35,236 nt of DNA from Planctomycetia bacterium. GTDB lineage: Bacteria; Planctomycetota; Planctomycetia; Gemmatales; Gemmataceae. A program made the position numbers and the translations under genes. Where the stretch lies: the NCBI GenBank assembly GCA_005772955.1, contig SXID01000175.1:1-35236 (forward strand). The letters are read 5' to 3'. The notes beneath the pieces were generated by a model. That model saw only the letters and a list, made by a program, of their open reading frames with translations. It did no database searches and had not been told where the DNA came from. Within the stretch, counting starts at the first letter, position 1; the number at the start of each line of letters is the position of its first letter. Positions 14,327 through 33,121 of this stretch are shown here, piece after piece.

Positions 14327-16087
14327 CTATGGGTTGGCGGTAGCGATCTGGTTCGGGCTGGTGTGTTGTCCAGTGCCGGGTTCGAAGCGGCCGAACGTGA
14401 CGACGGCGATGTCGTCGTTCTGGGCGCGGCCGTCGGCGTGCATGCGGACTGCATCGACCAGACGCATGCCGAGGTTTTTGGCACGCTGGCCGTCGGTGTC
14501 GTGAGCCGAGTTGTCGGGGGCTAGACACTGGCTCAGGGCCTCATCGCCGAACATCTTACTGGCCTGGTTCATCGCGTCGGTCACGCCATCGGTGAATGCG
14601 GTGACCGTGTCACCTCTACCCAGCTTCACGGTCACCTGTCCGAACGGGTAGCCGGGCAGGGTGCCGATGGGCAACCCAGTGTCGTCGAGAGAGATCACGT
14701 CGATCAGTTGGTCGGTGGCCGCGCGGTACAGTTTTGGACTCATGTGTCCGGCGTTCACGATGGTCAAGGCGTGTTCGATCGGGTCGAGAACCATGACCGC
14801 GAGGGTCACGAACCGATCGCCCAGCGCACCGTTGCTCATCTGGTCGTTGAGCAGACACACGGCCTGTGCCAGGTCGGGCACGGTGAGCAGGCAGAAGCGG
14901 ACCTCAGAACTGAGTTTGGCGACGAGCAGCGCCGCGGGAACCCCCTTGCCGGCCACGTCGGCGACCACGATCGCAAGCCGGCCGTCGCGCAACGGGATGA
15001 AGTCGTAGTAGTCGCCGCCGACGGTCTGGGCCGGGGAGTAGTGCGCGTAGAACTCGTACCCTTTCAGGTCGGGAAGCGTCTGTGGCAGGAACCCGAGTTG
15101 CACCTTGCGGGCCAACTCGACTTCCTTCGCTTCCTTCTGCTGCTCGAGCATCTGCGCCAGCATCCGGGCCTTCTCGATGGAGATACCCACGAGGTTAGCG
15201 ACGATGGTGAGCAGGTTCAGGTCGTCGATGCTGAACTTCTTCGCGCGGTCCTGGGTGTCGAGTTGCATCGCACCGATTGGTCGTCCTTCGGACGAGGCGA
15301 GCGGCACGCACATGACGGACCGGATCTTGAACTCGGCAATGGAAACCGCCGGGCCGAGCATTGCGTCGTTCGAAGCGTCTACGCTGAGGTACGATTGCAT
15401 CGAGTCGATGGTTTTCTTCACTATGGTTTTGCTGAACCGCATGTCTTCCTGGGAGGCGCGGCGGCACTTGACCACCTTGGGCCGCGCCCGACCGTTCTCG
15501 TCAAGCAGCAGGACTAAGCACCGGTCGGCCTGCTTGAACACGCTGAACAGCGTATCCGCAATCTGAGCGAACAATGGATCGAGTTCGATCACGCGGGACA
15601 GGCTCGTACTGATCTCCAGGAGCGTGCGGAGTCGGTCTGACGGGGTCACTTCCAGGAGACTCTGCGCGTTGCCTTTGCCCTGGGTGGCCTCGATGGTGGT
15701 CTGGCCGCTGTCCTCTACCTCGTCTTCGTCGCGGCCCTTGGTGTAGATGCCCGCCGGAAGCGGTTGCGGCTTGACCGCACGCTCGTCGTCGAACCGGAAC
15801 AGGAAGTCGCAGATCTTGATCCGGTCATCCGGCTTGAGCGCCAGGCGTGAGGGGGGCAAAATTTCCTTGCTGTTCACGAACGTGCGGTTCCGGCTCTTCA
15901 GGTCTTCGATGTAGAACTGCCCGCCGGCGCGCACGATCTGCGCGTGCTTGCGGCTCACCGCGTGGTGCGGGATGACGATCTGGCACTCTCTCTCGTCGCG
16001 CCCGATCACGAACATGTCCCCGTCCAGGGGGATAGTCTTGCTCGGGGCGGCTCCTTCGGGAGCCTTTAGCAGTATGAGTGATGGCAT
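14327..16087 (-). CDS. FHA-GAF-SpoIIE (PP2C) serine phosphatase
   Basis: The product is 586 residues from ATG 16087, where the FHA domain begins; a start further upstream would add an unlike leader. Residues about 15-95 form an FHA phosphothreonine-binding domain: FVIGRDE, SRKHAQI and SRNRTFVN, where the usual Gly of NGT is Arg. Residues about 155-310 form a GAF sensory domain. Residues about 340-575 form a PP2C-type SpoIIE/RsbU phosphatase with AQTVGGDYYDF, VADVAGKGVPAALL, AFTDGVTDAMN and QNDDIAVVTF carrying metal-binding Asp residues. RsbU-like proteins dephosphorylate anti-anti-sigma factors in partner-switching pathways. No STAS or HPK partner lies in the window. It is monocistronic. Confidence 0.93.
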   Translation of the reverse strand: MPSLILLKAPEGAAPSKTIPLDGDMFVIGRDERECQIVIPHHAVSRKHAQIVRAGGQFYIEDLKSRNRTFVNSKEILPPSRLALKPDDRIKICDFLFRFDDERAVKPQPLPAGIYTKGRDEDEVEDSGQTTIEATQGKGNAQSLLEVTPSDRLRTLLEISTSLSRVIELDPLFAQIADTLFSVFKQADRCLVLLLDENGRARPKVVKCRRASQEDMRFSKTIVKKTIDSMQSYLSVDASNDAMLGPAVSIAEFKIRSVMCVPLASSEGRPIGAMQLDTQDRAKKFSIDDLNLLTIVANLVGISIEKARMLAQMLEQQKEAKEVELARKVQLGFLPQTLPDLKGYEFYAHYSPAQTVGGDYYDFIPLRDGRLAIVVADVAGKGVPAALLVAKLSSEVRFCLLTVPDLAQAVCLLNDQMSNGALGDRFVTLAVMVLDPIEHALTIVNAGHMSPKLYRAATDQLIDVISLDDTGLPIGTLPGYPFGQVTVKLGRGDTVTAFTDGVTDAMNQASKMFGDEALSQCLAPDNSAHDTDGQRAKNLGMRLVDAVRMHADGRAQNDDIAVVTFGRFEPGTGQHTSPNQIATANP

Positions 16088-16188
16088 GAGCAGCGCCCGT
16101 AATGTTGAGGATGGCACGGGCCGTGAATGACGACAAGAAATCAATACGAATGGTACTGCTGCGGCGCGCTTTCCGCAAGCAACCAACT

Positions 16189-21827: not shown

Positions 21828-24131
21828 TCACCCCACAATAAATCGCCCGATCTGGAACGTGAGGAACGCCCCCACGTATGCCAGAGCCGTCATGTACACG
21901 AATGTGAACGAGGGCCAGAGCCAACTCCCCGTCTCGCGCTTGATCACGGCGAGCGTCGCGGCGCATTGACAGCACAGCGCGAAGAACACCATGATCGAGA
22001 GCGCGACCGGGACGCCGTACTTGCCGCGAACCGGGTCTTTCGACCAGTCGTCTTGCACCGCTTTCGTTAACCCCGCGACCTTCTCCTTCGCTTCGGCGTC
22101 GGCATTCTTGTTTCCGATGGCTTTGGTGTCCACTTCGCCCACATCGTAGAGGATGCCGAACGTGCCAACGATGACTTCGCGGGCCGGGAAACTCGCCATC
22201 GCCGCGACGCCTATCTTCCAGTCCCACCCCAGCGGCTTGAACACTGGCTCCATCCACAGCCCGACGCGACCCAGTGCGCTGCCGCGTTTCCATTCCCCGT
22301 TCAGTTTGTCAGGGAGTGCCGCCGCCTCTTCGAGTTTCTCCAACTCCGCCTTCTCGTCGTCGGTCAATTGCGGTGGTGCGGGTTCGCCTTCGGCTGGCTC
22401 CTCCTTGCTCTTCTCGTCTTTCTCTTTGAGTGCGTTCAACTTTTCGGCGTTCTCTTTCACCGCGTCTTCGGCCTTCTCGACGCGCTCGGGGTATGATTCG
22501 CCGTTCGCGTCAGTGAAGGGGAAGTACAGAGCGGCCCAGACGAGAATCATCGCCATGAGGATGATCGTTCCGGCGCGGAGTGTGAACGCCCACCCAGCAC
22601 CGCCCATCCGCCGGAGGACCGATGTGAACTTCGGTCGCCGGTAGTTCGGGAGTTCCATTACGAACACCGGCGGCGCGCCGCGAAGCAGCGTGCGCTTCAG
22701 CGCGAGCGCGACCAGCGGCGCGACCGTGAAGCCGATCATGTACATCGCGAACAGCACCACTCCTGGGAGCCAACCTGGGGAACCTGGGCGCGCGATGAAC
22801 GCACCGATCAGGAGGATGTACACCGGGAGCCGCGCGGAACAACTCATCAGCGGTGCAACGAGAATGGTCGCGAGCCGATCACGCCGGTTCTCGATCACGC
22901 GTGCCGCCATCACGCCCGGAATTGCACACGCCACGCTCGACAGCATGGGGATGAAGGACTTCCCGCTCAGACCGCACCGGCTCATGACGCGGTCCATGAG
23001 GAACGCGGCGCGCGCCATGTACCCACAGTCTTCCAACACCGCGATGAACCCAAACAGGATCATGATCTGCGGCAGAAACACCAGCACGCCTCCGACACCT
23101 TTGATGATGCCGTCCACGAGTAGCGCGCGGAGTGGGCCAGACGGCATCGCGCCTTCGACGCCCTTCGCGACCGTGTCCTGTCCGCTGCCGATCAGGTCCA
23201 TGAGCGGCTTCGCCCACAGAAAGATCGACTGGAACATCAGGAACATGACGAGCAGGAAGACCAGCGTGCCCCACACGCGGTTCGTGAGAACGTTGTCGAT
23301 GCGGTCGGTCCACGTGACCGGGCGGACCGCGGGCTTCGTCACGGCGGCGGCGACAGCGGTGCGCACCCACGCGAACCGCGTCCGCGCCTCCACACCGGGA
23401 ACGGCGTGCCCGGCAGTCGCGAGTTTGTCACGTGCGCCGATTAACGCGGACTTCAGTCGCGCGCCGTACCGTTCAATGAGCCACTGTTCCGTGTACCCGC
23501 CGATGTCGATGATCGCGCGCCGGACCAGAAACGTCGGGATCTCGTCGCTCAGTTCCTTTTGCAACTGCTCCGCCACTTGGTCGAACGCGACCGGGAACGC
23601 CGGGCCGTGAGGCGCGGTTTGGCCCGCCGCAGTGCGAATCGCGGTCGTGAGTTGCGCGAGGCCGGTGCCGTTGTTCGCCTGGATCGGCACGACCGGTACG
23701 CCGAGTGATTCGGACAACTTCGCGTAGTTGAACGTGAGACCCTGTGCCGCGGCCGCGTCGATCATGTTCACCGCGACGACCACCGGCACTCCTAAATCAA
23801 GCAACTGACTGGTGAGATAAAGGTGACGATCGAGATTGGTCGCATCGACGATGGAGACGACAACGGACGGTCGCGGTTCTTCGGGCCGCCGGCCCAGGAG
23901 CAAATCGACCGCGACCATCTCGTCCGGGCTGCGTGCGGCGAGGCTGTACGTGCCGGGCAGGTCGATGAGACTGACCGTTGTGCCGTCGGCCGAAAACTCG
24001 CCTTTCGTCATCTCGACGGTGACGCCGGGGTAGTTACCGATCCGCTGCCGCAACCCGGAGAGCGCGTTGAACAGCGTCGATTTCCCCGCGTTCGGGTTCC
24101 CGACGAGCGCGACGGTGATGGGATCGGCCAT
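21828..24131 (-). CDS. feoB: FeoB ferrous iron transporter
   Basis: The product is 767 residues from ATG 24131. The N-terminal G domain has GNPNAGKSTLFNALSG (G1), DLPGTYSL (G3) and VNMID (G4), followed by the helical GDI-like part. The membrane domain has the two gate motifs GYMARAAFLMDRVM and SFIPMLSSVACAIPGVMAAR, plus CQCAAT near the C-terminus. It imports Fe2+ across the inner membrane. An acidic, coiled-coil-like insert (about residues 541-625, EKAEDAVKENAEKLNALKEK) lies between membrane helices and is longer than in E. coli FeoB. It is downstream of feoA and upstream of the Cys-rich protein. Confidence 0.97.
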   Translation of the reverse strand: MADPITVALVGNPNAGKSTLFNALSGLRQRIGNYPGVTVEMTKGEFSADGTTVSLIDLPGTYSLAARSPDEMVAVDLLLGRRPEEPRPSVVVSIVDATNLDRHLYLTSQLLDLGVPVVVAVNMIDAAAAQGLTFNYAKLSESLGVPVVPIQANNGTGLAQLTTAIRTAAGQTAPHGPAFPVAFDQVAEQLQKELSDEIPTFLVRRAIIDIGGYTEQWLIERYGARLKSALIGARDKLATAGHAVPGVEARTRFAWVRTAVAAAVTKPAVRPVTWTDRIDNVLTNRVWGTLVFLLVMFLMFQSIFLWAKPLMDLIGSGQDTVAKGVEGAMPSGPLRALLVDGIIKGVGGVLVFLPQIMILFGFIAVLEDCGYMARAAFLMDRVMSRCGLSGKSFIPMLSSVACAIPGVMAARVIENRRDRLATILVAPLMSCSARLPVYILLIGAFIARPGSPGWLPGVVLFAMYMIGFTVAPLVALALKRTLLRGAPPVFVMELPNYRRPKFTSVLRRMGGAGWAFTLRAGTIILMAMILVWAALYFPFTDANGESYPERVEKAEDAVKENAEKLNALKEKDEKSKEEPAEGEPAPPQLTDDEKAELEKLEEAAALPDKLNGEWKRGSALGRVGLWMEPVFKPLGWDWKIGVAAMASFPAREVIVGTFGILYDVGEVDTKAIGNKNADAEAKEKVAGLTKAVQDDWSKDPVRGKYGVPVALSIMVFFALCCQCAATLAVIKRETGSWLWPSFTFVYMTALAYVGAFLTFQIGRFIVG

Positions 24132-26724: not shown

Positions 26725-26906
26725 GGATGAATCTCCTCGGGACCGAAAGTCCCAGACGCGGCCGGGACGGGGTTACGTGCCGAATGTTCTACCCGCACCG
26801 AACTGGGAAGCAAGAGTCTTGGGGAAAACGGCGCGGCCCGAATTCGGCTTCCGCGGCGCGATGGATTGTGTCACACTTCCGCACCCTACCTCACAACAGG
26901 CCACGG

Positions 26907-28085
26907 ATGGCCGTGACACCAACAAACACACCCGCCACACAACCCGCGACCGCGCTGCCCGTCCGAACCACGCCGGTCGTGAAGTCGGTCGGGGTCGTGG
27001 CTTCTCCGGGCCAGGAACGGGGGTTCGTCGCGCGGAACCGCACCCTGCTCTGGTTCGTACTGTTGCTCGTGTTCGCGGATGTCGCGGTCGGGTGGTTCTC
27101 GCCGGTCTGGGAGCGGCACTCGCCGGACTCCTACACCGCGCGTGTCCACGGCTGCGCCGAACGTCGGCGCGACGTGGTGTTCGTTGGCGGTTCGCCCGTG
27201 ACCGAGGGCATCAACCCCGCGATCATCGCGGGCGCGCCGTGGCGCGGGCGCCCACTGAGCGACGCGTATGCGGTGGGCTTGTCCGGCGGCACCACAACCG
27301 ACTTCTACTACGCGACGGTGAAGGCGTGCCCGGTGCCGCCGCGCGTTCTGGTTTACGGCATCACCGCGAGCGATCTGAACGATAGCCGAAACGAACCGCA
27401 CGGCGTTCATTCGCTGCTCACGCGCGGCGACGTGATCGAGATCGCCCGCACACGCCCGGATGCACGCGAGTGGGTGACGCGCCAGTACGTTCATTCAAAG
27501 CTCAACACCGCGTCGAACACGTACCGCTACCGGCACGGTGTCCGCATGTGGGCCGCGACGCGCGCCGATCACTTGTTTCCAGACTCGTGCCCCAGCGCGA
27601 CGCGTGAGGCAGGCGAACTCCGCGAACACGCCGAAGACCTCGCGCGCGGCACCGGATACGCCCCGCTGAAGGGCTATTCGCGTGTGCGATACGATCACAC
27701 CAAAGCTCGCGGCGAGCAACCGAACCCGTTCGGCTACCTGGACCGATTCCGCATCGGTTCGCACCTGAAGTACCTGCACAAACTCGCCGACTGGTGCCGC
27801 GACCGCGGCGTCGAACTGGTGTTGGTGGACATGCCAGTAACGGCGGACCTCGAAGCGAAGTACACAGTCGCGTTTCCCGAGTACCGCGAGCGGGTGGCCG
27901 AAGTCGAGCGCGAACGCGGGCTGACGGTGATCCGCGCCACCCGCGACGCCGTCGGCTTGACCGACGAAGACTTCGCTGACCTGATTCACCTGACACCAGA
28001 CGGGTGCAAGAGGCTCAGCCTCTGGTTGCGCTGGACGCTCCAACAGGTTACGTGTAGCGTCGGCCCCGAAGGGGCGGTTCCATGA
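26907..28085 (+). CDS. SGNH/AlgX-DltD-like membrane-anchored protein
   Basis: This 392-residue protein starts at ATG 26907, the first start with a plausible protein. A Thr/Pro-rich N-terminus precedes one membrane helix at about 48-65, with the rest outside. The SGNH-type motif is VVFVGGSPVTEG with candidate nucleophile S96; the C-terminal DLIHLTPDG supplies D358 and H361. Paired with an MBOAT gene, it probably transfers acyl groups to a surface polymer, as AlgX/AlgJ or DltD do. The polymer is unknown. Its stop overlaps the MBOAT start by ATGA. The 182-base divergent gap upstream contains no feature I can assign. Confidence 0.78.
   Translation: MAVTPTNTPATQPATALPVRTTPVVKSVGVVASPGQERGFVARNRTLLWFVLLLVFADVAVGWFSPVWERHSPDSYTARVHGCAERRRDVVFVGGSPVTEGINPAIIAGAPWRGRPLSDAYAVGLSGGTTTDFYYATVKACPVPPRVLVYGITASDLNDSRNEPHGVHSLLTRGDVIEIARTRPDAREWVTRQYVHSKLNTASNTYRYRHGVRMWAATRADHLFPDSCPSATREAGELREHAEDLARGTGYAPLKGYSRVRYDHTKARGEQPNPFGYLDRFRIGSHLKYLHKLADWCRDRGVELVLVDMPVTADLEAKYTVAFPEYRERVAEVERERGLTVIRATRDAVGLTDEDFADLIHLTPDGCKRLSLWLRWTLQQVTCSVGPEGAVP
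28063..28075 (+). promoter_or_regulatory. Hairpin over the MBOAT ribosome binding site
   Basis: GCCCC-GAA-GGGGC lies inside the end of the SGNH gene, seven bases before the MBOAT start codon at 28082. It hides AAGGGG, the likely ribosome binding site of the MBOAT gene. A ribosome translating the upstream gene would open it, so it fits a translational-coupling switch. Confidence 0.5.
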
Positions 28086-29512
28086 TCTTCGCGAGCAAAG
28101 CGTTCCTCGTGTTCCTGCCGGTTGTGCTGGTGCTGTACTTCGCGCTGCGGACCCGCTCGCATAAGTACCGGGTGCTGCTCGCGGCGAGCTGGTTCTTCTA
28201 CGCGTGGCTCAGCCCGCAATACCTCTGGGTGATTATCCTCTGCACGCTCATCGACTACGCCGCGGCGATCAAGATCGAAGCGGCGGAAAGTAACCGCGCG
28301 CGGAAGCGGTGGCTCGCGTTCAGCATCGTGGCGAATCTCGGACTGCTGGCCGCGTTCAAGTACGCGATGTTCGCGTATGACAACGCGGTGTCACTCTCGA
28401 ACCTGTGTGGCTTCGAGGTTCGCGACCGACACTGGAGCATCCTGCTCCCGCTGGGCATCAGTTTCCACACATTCCAGGGCATCAGCTACACCGTGGACGT
28501 GTACCGCAGACAGATCAAGGCGGTGCGGAGTTTCGTGGACTACGCGCTGTTCGTCTCGTTCTTCCCGCAACTCGCAGCCGGGCCGATCGTGCGCGCCGCT
28601 GAGTTTCTGCCGCAGATGCACACACCACCGACACCGAGCGCGAAGCAGATCGCGGACGGGCTTCACCTGTTCGTCCTGGGGCTGTTCAAGAAGCTGTTCA
28701 TTGCGGATCAGTTGGACGTGCTGTTCGTGTCGCCGGTGTTCGCGGACCCGGGCGCGTTTGGTCCCGCGGCGCACCGGTGGGCGGCGGTAGCGTGGGTGGC
28801 GCAAATCTACTGCGACTTCTCCGGTTACTCTGACATGGCCGTGGGCGTTGCGAAGTGGTTCGGCTTCGAGTTACCGCGAAACTTCAACCTGCCGTACCTG
28901 GCGACGAGCATCACGGATTTCTGGCGCCGGTGGCACCTCTCGCTCTCGACGTGGCTACGCGACTACGTGTACTTCCCGCTGGGCGGGAGCAAGGGCAGCG
29001 CGGCACGCACGTACTTCAACTTGATGACCGTGTTCGTGCTGTGTGGACTGTGGCACGGGGCGACTTGGCCGTGGCTCGTGTACGGTGCGTACAACGGGCT
29101 GCTCATGTGCCTGCATCGCGTCTGGGATCGCGCGCTCACGGGTGTACCGTGGGCCGATGTGGTCCGTGGGTCGTGGGCGTGGGCCGCGCTCACGTGGTTC
29201 GCGACACTCGCGCAAGTCACGGCTGGCCTGGTGCTGATTCGGATGAAGTCGTGGCCCGATGGCGGGCTGATGTTGAAGTCGCTTGTGGCGTTCGACGTGT
29301 GGGGCGAGCGCGCCGCGGGCGTGCCGGTGTGGGTGCCGCTATTGGTGCTGCTCGTCGCGGTCGGTCACGTGTGCGGTGGGCTGAGCGCGAAGTTCGGTTC
29401 GCGTTGGGAACTGCCGTCGCCCGTGCGCGCCGCGGGGTACGTCGCGGCGGTGCTGGCGCTGGTCACGCTCACGCCGGGCGTCACGCGGACGTTCATCTAC
29501 ATCCAGTTCTGA
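28082..29512 (+). CDS. MBOAT-family O-acyltransferase (AlgI-like)
   Basis: This 476-residue multi-helix membrane protein overlaps the upstream stop by ATGA. It has the AlgI/DltB pattern: LVLYFALRTRSHKYRVLLAAS, LPLGISFHTFQGISYTVDVYR, and DFWRRWHLSLSTWLRDYVYF. The conserved His of GLWHGATWPW is H325, the proposed catalytic residue. It moves acyl groups across the membrane to a partner acting on a surface glycan. The SGNH gene next door is the likely partner. About eleven hydrophobic segments are visible. Confidence 0.92.
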   Translation: MIFASKAFLVFLPVVLVLYFALRTRSHKYRVLLAASWFFYAWLSPQYLWVIILCTLIDYAAAIKIEAAESNRARKRWLAFSIVANLGLLAAFKYAMFAYDNAVSLSNLCGFEVRDRHWSILLPLGISFHTFQGISYTVDVYRRQIKAVRSFVDYALFVSFFPQLAAGPIVRAAEFLPQMHTPPTPSAKQIADGLHLFVLGLFKKLFIADQLDVLFVSPVFADPGAFGPAAHRWAAVAWVAQIYCDFSGYSDMAVGVAKWFGFELPRNFNLPYLATSITDFWRRWHLSLSTWLRDYVYFPLGGSKGSAARTYFNLMTVFVLCGLWHGATWPWLVYGAYNGLLMCLHRVWDRALTGVPWADVVRGSWAWAALTWFATLAQVTAGLVLIRMKSWPDGGLMLKSLVAFDVWGERAAGVPVWVPLLVLLVAVGHVCGGLSAKFGSRWELPSPVRAAGYVAAVLALVTLTPGVTRTFIYIQF

Positions 29513-29534
29513 CGTTGTCGCGCGTGGGGCATTC

Positions 29535-29595
29535 ACGAGCCGCGACCGCAAGGGAGCGGCAAACTTACACCGCTCCACTTGCGGTCGCGGCTCGT
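29535..29595. repeat. REPIN-like inverted repeat after the MBOAT gene
   Basis: ACGAGCCGCGACCGCAAG (start 29535) is inverted at the right end (29570-29595); the two 25-26-base arms differ by a single inserted base. The 10-base centre is AT-richer. It lies in the 169-base gap before the receptor-like gene and is unlike the other palindromes in sequence. No other feature is evident in that gap apart from a GGGAGG ribosome binding site near its end. Confidence 0.8.
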
Positions 29596-29681
29596 TAAGG
29601 CACGTAAGCGCTTGCGCTGCAATTCGATATCCCCACTTGGTACAGTGAAAGCGGTTCGCACCTCGTTCGGGAGGCGCAGTT

Positions 29682-31304
29682 ATGCAACGGCAGTGGCCGT
29701 TAGTCGCGGTTGTGTTGATGAGCGTGCTCGTAATCGCGCTGGTGGCGTTCCGGTCCGTGGGGTTCGGCGCGAAGGTGGCCGAACCGCGTCCGGTACCGGA
29801 CGGCGACCAGGAGATCGCGTGGCTGCACGTCCCCACGTCCGGCGACACGTGGGAGAACTTCGTGTGGGGCATGAAGCGCGTGGAGATGAACACCGCGCCC
29901 ACCGGCTTGCACGTGGACGACTCCGGCGCGTTCCCGTCGCGCACCACGGCCGTGCCCGAAGTGGTCATCTCCCGTGACGGGTTCGCGGGGAAACTCCGTG
30001 TCCGATGGTACAAGGTCACCAACGACACCCCGAACGCGGCCTGGGTGAAGACACTAGCGGCTCGCAATCCGGCTCCGCTCGCGCTCGTCGGCGGGTGGTC
30101 CAGCGATCGCGCGAGCGAACTCGCCGAGGCGATGGCCAAGGCCAACTGGCCCGGACAGAAGCCGCTGTTGCTGCTGTCCACCGCGACCGCCGACGTCGTG
30201 GACCCCGGGGAGAACTCCGCGAGCGGTTACAGCCCATCGAAACTGATCGAGCTTTACGAACGCTCGTACCGATTCTGCTTCACGAACAAGCAGATGGCCG
30301 ACGCAGTGACGGACTTCGTCTTTAGTGACCCGACCCTCAGACCCGGTCCCGCGATCTGGCCCGAGTTGCGGGCGGCGGCCGGCACTGCCGGCGCCACCTG
30401 GGGGTTCCCGTGGCTCGCGGAAGTAGCGGGCAAACCCCAGCCCATTCAGGCGTTCGCAGTCGAGTGGAGGGACGACCCGTATTCGAAAGACTTGTCGCAG
30501 CAGTTACGTGAGGCGTTTGTGGAGCAGGGCGGGAACGCCGGGCGCCCGCGACTCGAATTCGCGGCGCTCCGGGTGCCCTTCAGTGCCGGCCGCTTCGCCA
30601 GGCCGAACCCGTTCGAGGCGCGGATCGTTGACGACATCCTCGCGCACCCGAAGTTCCCGCAGCGCGGCGAGCGCACCGTCCTGGTGCTCCCGTCCGTGAC
30701 GGCCCCCGCTCGCCGGGTGCTTGGCGCGCTGGTGCAGGGCACGCCCGGCGCGGCGCGGCGCCTGGTGGCCGTGACCGGCGACGGCATCCCAGTGAACGCG
30801 CTGTTCCGCGACGGCGAGTTCGCATGGCCCGTGCGGACGCTGCCGATTCCACTTGTGCTGTTCACGCATAGCGACCCGTTCGACTGGGACGAGCCGGGCG
30901 ACCCCAGACCGCCCCAGGGGTACGAACTCCTGCCACCCGGCAAGCCCGGCGAGGTGAAGAACAGCACTGAGGACATCCAACTGTTCACCCTGCTCACGCG
31001 GGTAGTCGCACGGGGCGCGTATCCCGATGGAACCGACCGGTTGATCGACGGCCCCGACCAACTTGCGAAGCACTTTGGCGCTCGGGTGCCGAAGTTCTTC
31101 GAGGACGATTCCGGTAACCGCCGCAGCGGTTCCGGGGAACACGTGGTTGTGCTTCGCCCGACGCCGCGAATCGAAGGCACGGTCACGTTCCCGGACGCGG
31201 TTCTCGAAGTGTGGACGCGAAAGCCGGGCGAGGGCTGGAAGCGGATCCGCTCGCGCCCCGTAGTGCAGACGATGCGGCCGAATGACTGGGGGGCCAGCGA
31301 ATGA
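29682..31304 (+). CDS. Membrane-anchored type-1 periplasmic-binding-like protein
   Basis: This 540-residue protein starts at ATG 29682 with GGGAGG eight bases upstream. One hydrophobic helix (about 6-24) anchors or exports it. After a segment with DTWENFVWGMKRVEM comes a region like branched-chain amino-acid-type receptors: VGGWSSDRASELAEAMAKAN, PLLLLSTATADVVDP, YRFCFTNKQMADAVTDFVF and VEWRDDPYSKDLSQQLREAF. These are the alternating strand-helix phrases of a two-lobed binding fold. No transporter genes are present. Its stop overlaps the histidine kinase start (ATGA), so it probably acts as a sensor component for that kinase. The ligand is unknown. Confidence 0.7.
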   Translation: MQRQWPLVAVVLMSVLVIALVAFRSVGFGAKVAEPRPVPDGDQEIAWLHVPTSGDTWENFVWGMKRVEMNTAPTGLHVDDSGAFPSRTTAVPEVVISRDGFAGKLRVRWYKVTNDTPNAAWVKTLAARNPAPLALVGGWSSDRASELAEAMAKANWPGQKPLLLLSTATADVVDPGENSASGYSPSKLIELYERSYRFCFTNKQMADAVTDFVFSDPTLRPGPAIWPELRAAAGTAGATWGFPWLAEVAGKPQPIQAFAVEWRDDPYSKDLSQQLREAFVEQGGNAGRPRLEFAALRVPFSAGRFARPNPFEARIVDDILAHPKFPQRGERTVLVLPSVTAPARRVLGALVQGTPGAARRLVAVTGDGIPVNALFRDGEFAWPVRTLPIPLVLFTHSDPFDWDEPGDPRPPQGYELLPPGKPGEVKNSTEDIQLFTLLTRVVARGAYPDGTDRLIDGPDQLAKHFGARVPKFFEDDSGNRRSGSGEHVVVLRPTPRIEGTVTFPDAVLEVWTRKPGEGWKRIRSRPVVQTMRPNDWGASE

Positions 31305-33031
31305 GTCCCACCACACCTTCGCCTGCCCGCAGTGAGGAGCCGCAGTTACCCGTGTGGCGGTACGCAGGCCGACTCGCGCCGCTCGCTGTGCTGTGGGTCG
31401 TTCTGGTTGGGCTGTTGGGCTGGCTCCTTGCGACACGCGCGAACTGGGGTGAGGAGTCCGACCGGGCGGATGTCCGCGAGTGGCTCGACAATACCCGCGT
31501 GTTCCGCAAGACGCTCGCGGAACTGGTGAAGGAGTACGTCGATTTTCTCCACGCCGAGGTTCGCGGCCCGGACCACAACGATAGCGTGAAGAACAAGCGT
31601 GCGGAGATCGAGGAACACCTGCGCGCGATGGTCGAACCCACGCGCATGTACTCCGGCCAACTTCCGCTGTTTCCCAACGTGTACTCGCTCGAGGTCGAGT
31701 TCGTCGGTGTGACCGGTCTCGATGGACACTTGGCGGAACCGGTGGTGTGGACCTCACCCAAGCCGCGACCCGGTGGGTCCGCGAGGGCGCAACTCCGCAC
31801 GCTCGAGTACGAACCGCCTCTGAACCGTGAAGGGGTGGGCGCCCGCGTGCGCTGCGTGTATCAACTTCACTCGTACAACCGGATGCAGAAGCAACAGGAC
31901 GAGTACCGGCTGTGGCAGACGGTCGCCGCCGGTGTGCTAGTGCCCACGACGCTGCTCGCGGTGTTCCTGGTCGCCAGGTTCGTGCGCCGCGAGCAGGCGC
32001 GCGAGCGGGAGAAGTGGCGGGCTGCGGCCGAAGCCGAACACCAGCAGCGCGAACTGCTCGCCGCCCAGGTCGCGAGAGAACTCGTCGAGCGCAACCTGCT
32101 CGAAGCACGCGTGAAGCAACAGGAGGCGGAGCGGTCGAGCGAGGAGTTGGGCCGCAAGGTACTCGAACAGGAACTTGAGGCCGCGCGGCTCGTGAACCGC
32201 GCGGCGGAGGCCGAACACGAGGCGTTGGAGATGAAGTCGCAACTCTACGCGAGTATCGGCATCATGGCCGGTAGTTACGCGCACAACATCAAGAACCTGC
32301 TCGTGCGCCCCAACGATCTCATCGCGCGTTGTATGGATGCGGCCGGCGCCGACCGTGAGCAGCACGGCATGTTAGAGGAAGTGAAGAGTACGCTTGGCAC
32401 CGTCACGGAGCGCCTCCAGCAAATCCTGCGCACGGTGCGCCGCGACCCTGCGAATACGGAAGTGACGCAGGTCGACGTGTACGACCTTTTCCGCGACACG
32501 GAACGCACCTGGGGTGAGATGGGACGCGACAAGTGGAAGCTCGCGGTGACGGCCGACATACCACCGGGCGCAGTGCTCGTTACGGGCGATCTATCGCACC
32601 TTCAGCAAGCGGTGGAGAACTTGGTCTTCAACGCGCGTGATGCGACATTCGAGATGCGGAACTACCTGCGCGACGAGGCCAAGCGGGAGACCGACCCCGC
32701 AGCGCGGCGACAGAAGTTGCTCGATGCCGCGAGTTGGAAAGGCGAGGTCCATCTGGGCGCGCACCGCGACGGCGATCGCGTTGTTCTCGAGGTCCGCGAC
32801 AACGGCATCGGGATGACGGACGAGGTGCGGCGGAATTGCCTGAAGACCCACTTCACCACGAAACGCGACAACGCGCTTTACGAGGGCTACAGCGCCGGTA
32901 TGGGGCTGGGGTTGTCGTTCGTGGCGATGGTGTTGGAACATCATGGCGGCGCGCTGGAGATCGACTCCGCGCCGCTGCGGGGCACGACCTTCCGCGTCCG
33001 TTTCCCAGTAGTAAGCCACGAAGAGGGGTAG
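31301..33031 (+). CDS. Membrane sensor histidine kinase with long coiled coil
   Basis: This 576-residue protein has two membrane helices (about 24-46 and 207-227) flanking an extracytoplasmic domain. An unusually long Glu/Ala/Arg-rich coiled coil runs from about 230 to 310. The phosphoacceptor helix reads GSYAHNIKNLLV with H328; the usual HExxNPL form is changed to HNIKNLL. ATP-binding boxes are QAVENLVFNARDA (N), VRDNGIGMTD (G1), KTHFTTKRDN (F) and SAGMGLGLSF (G2). It is a probable two-component sensor, but no response regulator lies nearby. It overlaps the upstream receptor-like gene by ATGA. Confidence 0.93.
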   Translation: MSPTTPSPARSEEPQLPVWRYAGRLAPLAVLWVVLVGLLGWLLATRANWGEESDRADVREWLDNTRVFRKTLAELVKEYVDFLHAEVRGPDHNDSVKNKRAEIEEHLRAMVEPTRMYSGQLPLFPNVYSLEVEFVGVTGLDGHLAEPVVWTSPKPRPGGSARAQLRTLEYEPPLNREGVGARVRCVYQLHSYNRMQKQQDEYRLWQTVAAGVLVPTTLLAVFLVARFVRREQAREREKWRAAAEAEHQQRELLAAQVARELVERNLLEARVKQQEAERSSEELGRKVLEQELEAARLVNRAAEAEHEALEMKSQLYASIGIMAGSYAHNIKNLLVRPNDLIARCMDAAGADREQHGMLEEVKSTLGTVTERLQQILRTVRRDPANTEVTQVDVYDLFRDTERTWGEMGRDKWKLAVTADIPPGAVLVTGDLSHLQQAVENLVFNARDATFEMRNYLRDEAKRETDPAARRQKLLDAASWKGEVHLGAHRDGDRVVLEVRDNGIGMTDEVRRNCLKTHFTTKRDNALYEGYSAGMGLGLSFVAMVLEHHGGALEIDSAPLRGTTFRVRFPVVSHEEG

Positions 33032-33121
33032 CCACAAAGGCACAAAGGACACAAAGAAGACAAGCAGAGGAAAGGAACTGAAGTCTTCTTTGTGTCCTTC
33101 GCGTCCTTTGCGCCTTTGTAG
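33032..33121. repeat. Long inverted repeat ending the kinase gene (CACAAAGG type)
   Basis: The left arm (33032-33061), with ACAAAGGACACAAAGAAGAC, is matched by an inverted right arm (33083-33121) that carries an extra 9-base segment. The left arm begins directly after the kinase stop codon and the right arm ends 20 bases before the ung stop codon. The convergent position and the run of T residues in the right arm (TCTTCTTTGTG) suit transcription termination as well as a REPIN-type element. Confidence 0.75.

Follow-up and report, generated by a model that had tools for sequence, protein, structure and literature searches.

A conserved gene pair for a type-1 binding-protein-like protein and a histidine kinase in Gemmatales, a candidate two-protein receptor

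A stretch of 35,236 nucleotides from a planctomycete of the family Gemmataceae, order Gemmatales (contig SXID01000175.1 of assembly GCA_005772955.1; hereafter the window), carries two overlapping genes on its plus strand. Gene A (29682..31304) encodes a type-1 binding-protein-like protein of 540 amino acids that is predicted to be membrane-anchored, and gene B (31301..33031) encodes a membrane histidine kinase of 576 amino acids. The stop of A and the start of B share the motif ATGA at 31301..31304 on the plus strand, exactly where a first-pass annotation, made from the sequence alone, had placed the overlap. That annotation had suggested that a dedicated, membrane-tethered binding protein feeds the kinase. 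Does the upstream protein serve the kinase as its receptor, or do the two genes only share a transcript? Our analysis favours a dedicated two-protein receptor in which the binding protein acts on the kinase, with a probability of about three in four, and as far as sequence goes the suggestion is supported.

In such a receptor, the N-terminal helix would hold A on the outside of the cytoplasmic membrane, where its type-1 (Venus-flytrap) domain would capture a small ligand, which is probably polar. A, either loaded or empty, would dock on the extracytoplasmic domain of B, and docking would move the second membrane helix of the kinase together with its long helical linker. The movement would then alter the extent to which B adds phosphate to, or removes it from, a response regulator whose gene lies elsewhere in the genome. 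We infer the docking, the ligand binding, which way the switch works and that the regulator is unlinked; the genetic support for the model appears strong and the structural support, which comes from predicted models, moderate. The interpretation is well supported because the pair is conserved, a kinase gene follows A in 14/14 loci elsewhere and the sensor domains of these kinases are probably homologous to that of B.

Conservation of the pair within and beyond the order

The order-wide survey covered 102 genomes of Gemmatales, with gene starts chosen by homology. A was found in 91 of them; with a limit of E 1e-40, B was found in 86. The two genes are adjacent on the same strand, A before B, in 80 of the 102 genomes, a few of these pairs having one gene cut by a contig end. 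This is 80 of the 91 genomes that have A, so the comparison of gene order that had been proposed in the first-pass annotation finds homologues that are not rarely adjacent. The exact overlap of four nucleotides recurs in 40 of the 80 pairs, an overlap or gap of at most 60 nucleotides is found in 77, and A–B adjacency exceeds chance. In five further genomes (G061, G075, G080, G089 and G096) A or B lies at a contig end.

The pair does not belong to a larger conserved cluster in the loci that we compared. Clusters of open reading frames (ORFs) with their centre outside the pair are found in at most 18 of 79 loci, flanks of at least 3 kb on both sides being present at 53 of 81 pairs and short at some loci. 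A response regulator was searched for in the fetched loci with a profile of seq­uences from seven proteins, and the nine matches are sporadic, none of them at a conserved place. The window's own genome, an assembly of 278 contigs, has 39 receiver-domain matches (37 above cut-off), none of which is on the contig of A and B, in agreement with the earlier remark that no response regulator is nearby. A and B look like one bounded unit because inverted repeats, not assigned to a strand, flank both sides. The first (29529..29601; 24-nucleotide arms, 92%) lies between the upstream gene and A, and the second (33036..33108; 26-nucleotide arms, 85%) lies directly past B.

Weak matches led to homologues of A in a second order, in 3/3 genomes examined. 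A search of the class with a second-order protein gave matches in 74 of 397 genomes, 11 of them in a further family, which we count as a third order because it is absent from the three genomes of the second. A search of the phylum with the A profile matched 2 of 392 genomes (the window's own genome and a stretch of 34 residues); both searches scored only three or four candidates per genome, and absences in them are weak evidence. Restriction of A to one order was considered and rejected, the same A profile having matched 3/3 sister-order genomes in a control. The families of A align by profile with a probability of 100 over 380 columns.

A kinase gene directly follows the A homologue on the same strand in 14/14 of these loci (11/11 in the third family and 3/3 in the second order). 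Two of the second-order loci are intact, and in the third genome the end of A precedes the kinase on the same contig. Comparison of B with the 14 sister kinases by profile, which covers the sensor halves only, gave a probability of 75.6 (P 2.4e-5), and the sensor domains are probably homologous on this evidence. The pair, apparently single-copy, has been retained in three orders of the same planctomycete class, and its receptor side is marked by a binding-protein family without a name.

Two side observations concern the second-order loci. motA and motB follow the kinase gene in two of the three genomes (L185:3526-5030 and L192:3446-6097); they were not found in the third, and the same search found none in the 11 third-family loci. 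This gene order hints that motility may be an output of the pair in the second order. The kinases of L185, L192 and L249, all of the second order, have a G1 box of the form HNxGxPI instead of DxGxG, and their phosphoacceptor is canonical.

Predicted structure of the two proteins and comparison with known systems

Identification of A from sequence alone was attempted without success, as Pfam, NCBIfam and PDB sequences yield no family and gene A has no match in them at E 1. Family searches with the profile and the members of 75 A homologues gave nothing convincing, and none of the 75 matches Peripla_BP_6 (PF13458) at E 1. Among 13 distant A homologues, two match this family weakly (best E 0.003). 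The A profile has no sequence-level similarity to 25 planctomycete Peripla_BP_6 proteins (probability 0.4), a reference set that is poor for LivJ-like proteins, at least 3 of the 25 being parts of protein-kinase fusions.

The predicted structure is more informative. An AlphaFold2 model of A built from six sequences has a predicted template modelling score (pTM) of 0.78 and a mean predicted local distance difference test score of 73.4. In Foldseek it matched the ligand domains of metabotropic glutamate receptors and binding proteins of the LivK type (best E 2.1e-10). The top VIA-align match is 4mlc (Z 23.0, root mean square deviation 3.5, 316 residues), and others are 3td9 (LivK; Z 21.3) and AmiC (1qo0; Z 20.4). 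The type-1 binding-protein fold of A, which had been read from the sequence at the outset, is well supported as a prediction, and the protein adopts such a fold in the model. The extracytoplasmic binding-protein domain corresponds to residues 40-523 (29799..31250, plus strand) according to AlphaFold2, Foldseek and VIA-align. In front of it, the N-terminal segment encoded by 29682..29780 (plus strand) has a membrane helix, residues 5-26 in the model, without a lipobox. A is probably anchored by an uncleaved N-terminal helix, because 80 of 83 A proteins scanned, one of them from the sister order, have such a helix and only 1 of 83 has a lipobox-like match. A shares its predicted fold with AmiC and the LivJ/LivK-like binding proteins and differs from them in its extra length and its membrane anchor.

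Residues of A that are at least 90% conserved concentrate in loops after the core strands (15/55, against 45/429 elsewhere; Fisher p 0.0011), the list of core strands having been hand-picked from the AlphaFold2 model. In type-1 binding proteins these loops are the place of ligand binding, and the enrichment fits a conserved ligand cleft in the model. It also bears on the idea that A is a structural partner of B, with a binding-protein fold and no ligand, instead of a small-molecule receptor. In the order, A resembles no known ligand-binding family by sequence, which is compatible with this idea, and so is the presence of kainate receptor amino-terminal domains, which share the fold, among the VIA-align matches of A. 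These domains are not the agonist-binding part of their receptors. The concentration of conserved residues in the cleft loops speaks against a ligand-free partner, which we consider improbable. One locus, L092 (G016), has A split in three by stops and frame changes beside an intact B; the broken gene may be a pseudogene or reflect a sequencing error.

B has the layout of a membrane kinase, as had been proposed. All its segments lie on the plus strand. A first membrane helix (31361..31444; about residues 21-48) is followed by an extracytoplasmic sensor domain (31436..31912; about residues 46-204), the proposed docking surface for A, and by a second membrane helix (31910..31987; about residues 204-229). 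A hydropathy scan found two membrane helices in 74 of 82 B proteins, and in B about 155 residues lie between them. The sensor domain is modelled as helices and then strands, with mixed confidence. A long, coiled-coil-like helical linker (31976..32224) leads to a DHp-like domain (32225..32437; about residues 309-379), both in low-confidence parts of the model, the latter unrecognised as HisKA by Pfam. The HATPase_c domain (32585..33010; Pfam E 9.7e-19) contains N444, D500-x-G-x-G504 and G533-x-G-L-G537, and its ATP-binding residues are invariant in 70 sequences. The model of B is weak overall, and its catalytic part matches histidine kinases with Z up to 19.8. Pfam found no receiver domain in B. 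The top NCBIfam match, PrsK (TIGR02916), scores 78.9 bits and does not reach the curated cut-off of 300.

The first-pass annotation had also drawn attention to a very long coiled coil before the phosphoacceptor. From the end of the second membrane helix to H328 there are 103 residues, and in the best a/d register 65% of positions are hydrophobic, against 40% overall, so a long coiled coil is plausible in the window's B. A very long one is peculiar to its near relatives and is no hallmark of the B family, because the linker spans 45 to 103 residues over 85 homologues.

These features suggest that A and B belong to a known kind of system, the binding-protein-coupled histidine kinases: A has a periplasmic-binding-protein fold by predicted structure and structure search, the gene of a membrane kinase is adjacent in 80/102 genomes and in 14/14 loci elsewhere, and B has an extracytoplasmic domain between two membrane helices. 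What appears to be new is this variant, with an Asn fixed beside the phosphoacceptor. In LuxP–LuxQ and TorT–TorS, a membrane kinase answers to a type-1 periplasmic protein dedicated to it, and the genes of LuxP and LuxQ are adjacent. The kinases of these systems are hybrids that carry receiver domains, and their binding proteins are soluble, whereas B lacks a receiver domain. CuaD–CuaS–CuaR of Ruminiclostridium cellulolyticum and XylFII–LytS are similar to A and B in that a binding-protein gene adjoins the gene of a two-helix kinase, and CuaD binds the extracellular part of CuaS (partial text of PMC10384115). As far as that text describes it, the binding protein of CuaDSR is anchored as a lipoprotein and a regulator gene adjoins that of the kinase, whereas A has a membrane-helix anchor, no regulator is nearby and the binding-protein family of A has no name. 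Among the titles and abstracts listed by literature searches on planctomycete kinases and binding proteins, none concerned the A–B pair, and the pair was not found in the available part of a planctomycete proteome study (PMC8567305).

Gene neighbourhood is common among systems of this kind: 10 of 11 characterised couples of binding protein and kinase are gene neighbours (partial text of PMC11113362). Several points weigh against the receptor model. Adjacency alone would be no proof that two genes function together, and in the same text PA0602, PA4985 and AgtB, three binding proteins encoded near kinases, were tested and showed no sign of activating them. A and B are apart in five genomes (G023, G024, G030, G042 and G059), and in G060 a different gene follows A. 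Neither gene was found in 11 of the 102 genomes, three of which make up one genus. This co-absence counts in favour of the receptor model but is weak evidence, because 8 of the 11 genomes fall below 90% completeness and 3 reach or exceed it. With only three sister sequences the sensor comparison was unconvincing (probability 1.8, P 0.028). Taken alone, the 18 invariant residues of A are not significantly enriched in the loops (5/18, p 0.059). Docking is not judgeable from the model of B, whose pTM is 0.39.

Some of these points would also suit a co-transcribed pair that works apart, A as a scavenging or transport receptor and B with its own domain as the sensor of a different signal: neighbouring genes do not always imply activation, as PMC11113362 indicates in the part available, and the genes are separate in five genomes. 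Against this stands a Pfam scan of 20 other window ORFs, nearly all of at least 250 amino acids (four overlapping ORFs and all shorter ones were excluded), which also bore out the earlier claim that no transporter is nearby. The sole transporter among them is FeoB (21828-24131, minus strand, about 5.5 kb off), which requires no binding protein, and no binding-protein-dependent transporter was found among the scanned ORFs. In two other orders, too, A homologues stand next to a kinase whose sensor domain is of the same kind, and A is predicted to be tethered to the membrane. We give a low probability to separate functions and prefer the two-protein receptor. Most sensor kinases still lack an assigned signal, and that of A and B may be approachable by screening ligands against a single soluble domain.

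The phosphoacceptor segment of B

The segment HNIKNLL had been singled out as an atypical phosphoacceptor, and comparison of homologues bears this out. H328, the His of AHNIKNLL (codon CAC at 32282-32284), opens the motif H328-N329-I330-K331-N332 (32282..32296, plus strand), in which Asn replaces Asp or Glu at the position after the His (H+1) and a second Asn stands at H+4. H328, N329 and N332 are invariant in 70/70 aligned B proteins. Of 88 B entries, 87 have His-Asn-x-x-Asn, and the one without it is a fragment at a contig end. Most HisKA matches of the window's genome (17 of 19) carry an acidic residue, Asp or Glu, at H+1; the remaining two, with His and Gln, are both below the family cut-off. 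The 14 sister kinases beside A homologues all have H-E-L-x-N. Because of this, the Asn at H+1 appears specific to kinases of the window's order, unless the kinase halves were swapped in.

B has no Pfam match to HisKA (PF00512) at E 1, and for 70 B proteins HisKA is absent among the best 25 of 53 families. B shares the phosphoacceptor His, the Asn at H+4 and HATPase_c with the HisKA kinases CrdS and HK853 (partial text of PMC3510030), and an HK853 structure matches the model of B at Z 19.7. It differs from both in having Asn instead of Glu or Asp at H+1 and in lacking the HisKA match in Pfam, so that of the motif H-[E/D]-x-x-[T/N] the His and the H+4 Asn are present and the acid is Asn in 70/70 proteins. 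When a profile of this region of B is aligned to 19 HisKA domains, H328 falls opposite their phosphoacceptor His (probability 43, P 2.5e-4). The HWE/HisKA2 kinases are characterised by Glu in place of the first Asn of the N-box (partial text of PMC12148442), whereas all 70 B proteins compared keep both N440 and N444.

The kinase activity of HisKA kinases depends on the acid at H+1 and their phosphatase activity does not, and the reverse holds for Thr or Asn at H+4; CrdS with A, D, G or Q at H+1 had in every case lost kinase activity and kept phosphatase activity (partial text of PMC3510030). B retains the phosphatase residue (H+4 Asn) and is without the kinase residue. This raises the alternative that B acts mainly as a phosphatase under ligand control, having lost kinase activity through the Asn at H+1 and kept phosphatase activity through the Asn at H+4, so that the pair would drain phosphate from a regulator charged by another kinase. 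The fixation of Asn across the B proteins, against Glu in 14/14 sister kinases, is in line with this, as is the finding in the accessible text of PMC3510030 that every tested change at H+1 of CrdS abolished kinase activity only and that its H+4 Asn is needed for phosphatase activity. Asn is not among the H+1 substitutions given there, however, and the phosphoacceptor His and the ATP-binding residues of B are invariant, as expected of a working kinase. Other HisKA matches in the genome also lack the acid (2/19), though below cut-off. Moreover, HWE/HisKA2 kinases are active with a non-acidic H+1. We regard a mainly phosphatase role as possible but unlikely, and the preferred reading remains a receptor in which A acts on B.

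Archaeal kinases have been typed by their H-box, and those tested types that conserve the His proved to be autokinases (partial text of PMC11784639). Literature searches on natural His-Asn kinases yielded nothing on point. Still more tentatively, the pair in the window's order might be a natural binding-protein-gated phosphatase derived from an ancestral His-Glu-x-x-Asn kinase that fixed Asn. If true, a ligand-sensing kinase became a ligand-sensing phosphatase acting on a regulator charged by another kinase, and the ancestral His-Glu-x-x-Asn form still stands beside A homologues in two other orders. The contrast between His-Asn in the window's order and His-Glu in the sister kinases would offer a natural test of a rule based on mutants, that an acid beside the phosphoacceptor His is needed for kinase and not for phosphatase activity.

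Neighbouring genes and other observations

Ten lineage-limited neighbours of the pair were scanned, of which five have a Pfam match and five have none. The matches are to a lysine-decarboxylase-like protein, an AAA ATPase (below its cut-off), a Mur ligase, an MBOAT protein and DUF6263. In the window, two genes (26727-28085 and 28082-29512) lie directly upstream of A and B; an MBOAT acyltransferase gene overlaps, by four nucleotides, the end of a gene without a Pfam match. The arrangement resembles that of acyltransferase pairs for polysaccharide modification. A second likely signalling protein on the contig, with FHA, GAF and SpoIIE domains, is encoded at 14327-16186.

The Peripla_BP_6 reference set brought up a different combination of the same fold with a kinase. 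Three planctomycete Ser/Thr kinases (L203:1-2670, L216:1477-4050 and L225:1360-3831) are fused to a C-terminal type-1 binding-protein domain; Pkinase and Peripla_BP_6 were found in 3/3, and Peripla_BP_5 also in two. Further open frames of about 800-1100 amino acids may resemble these fusions.

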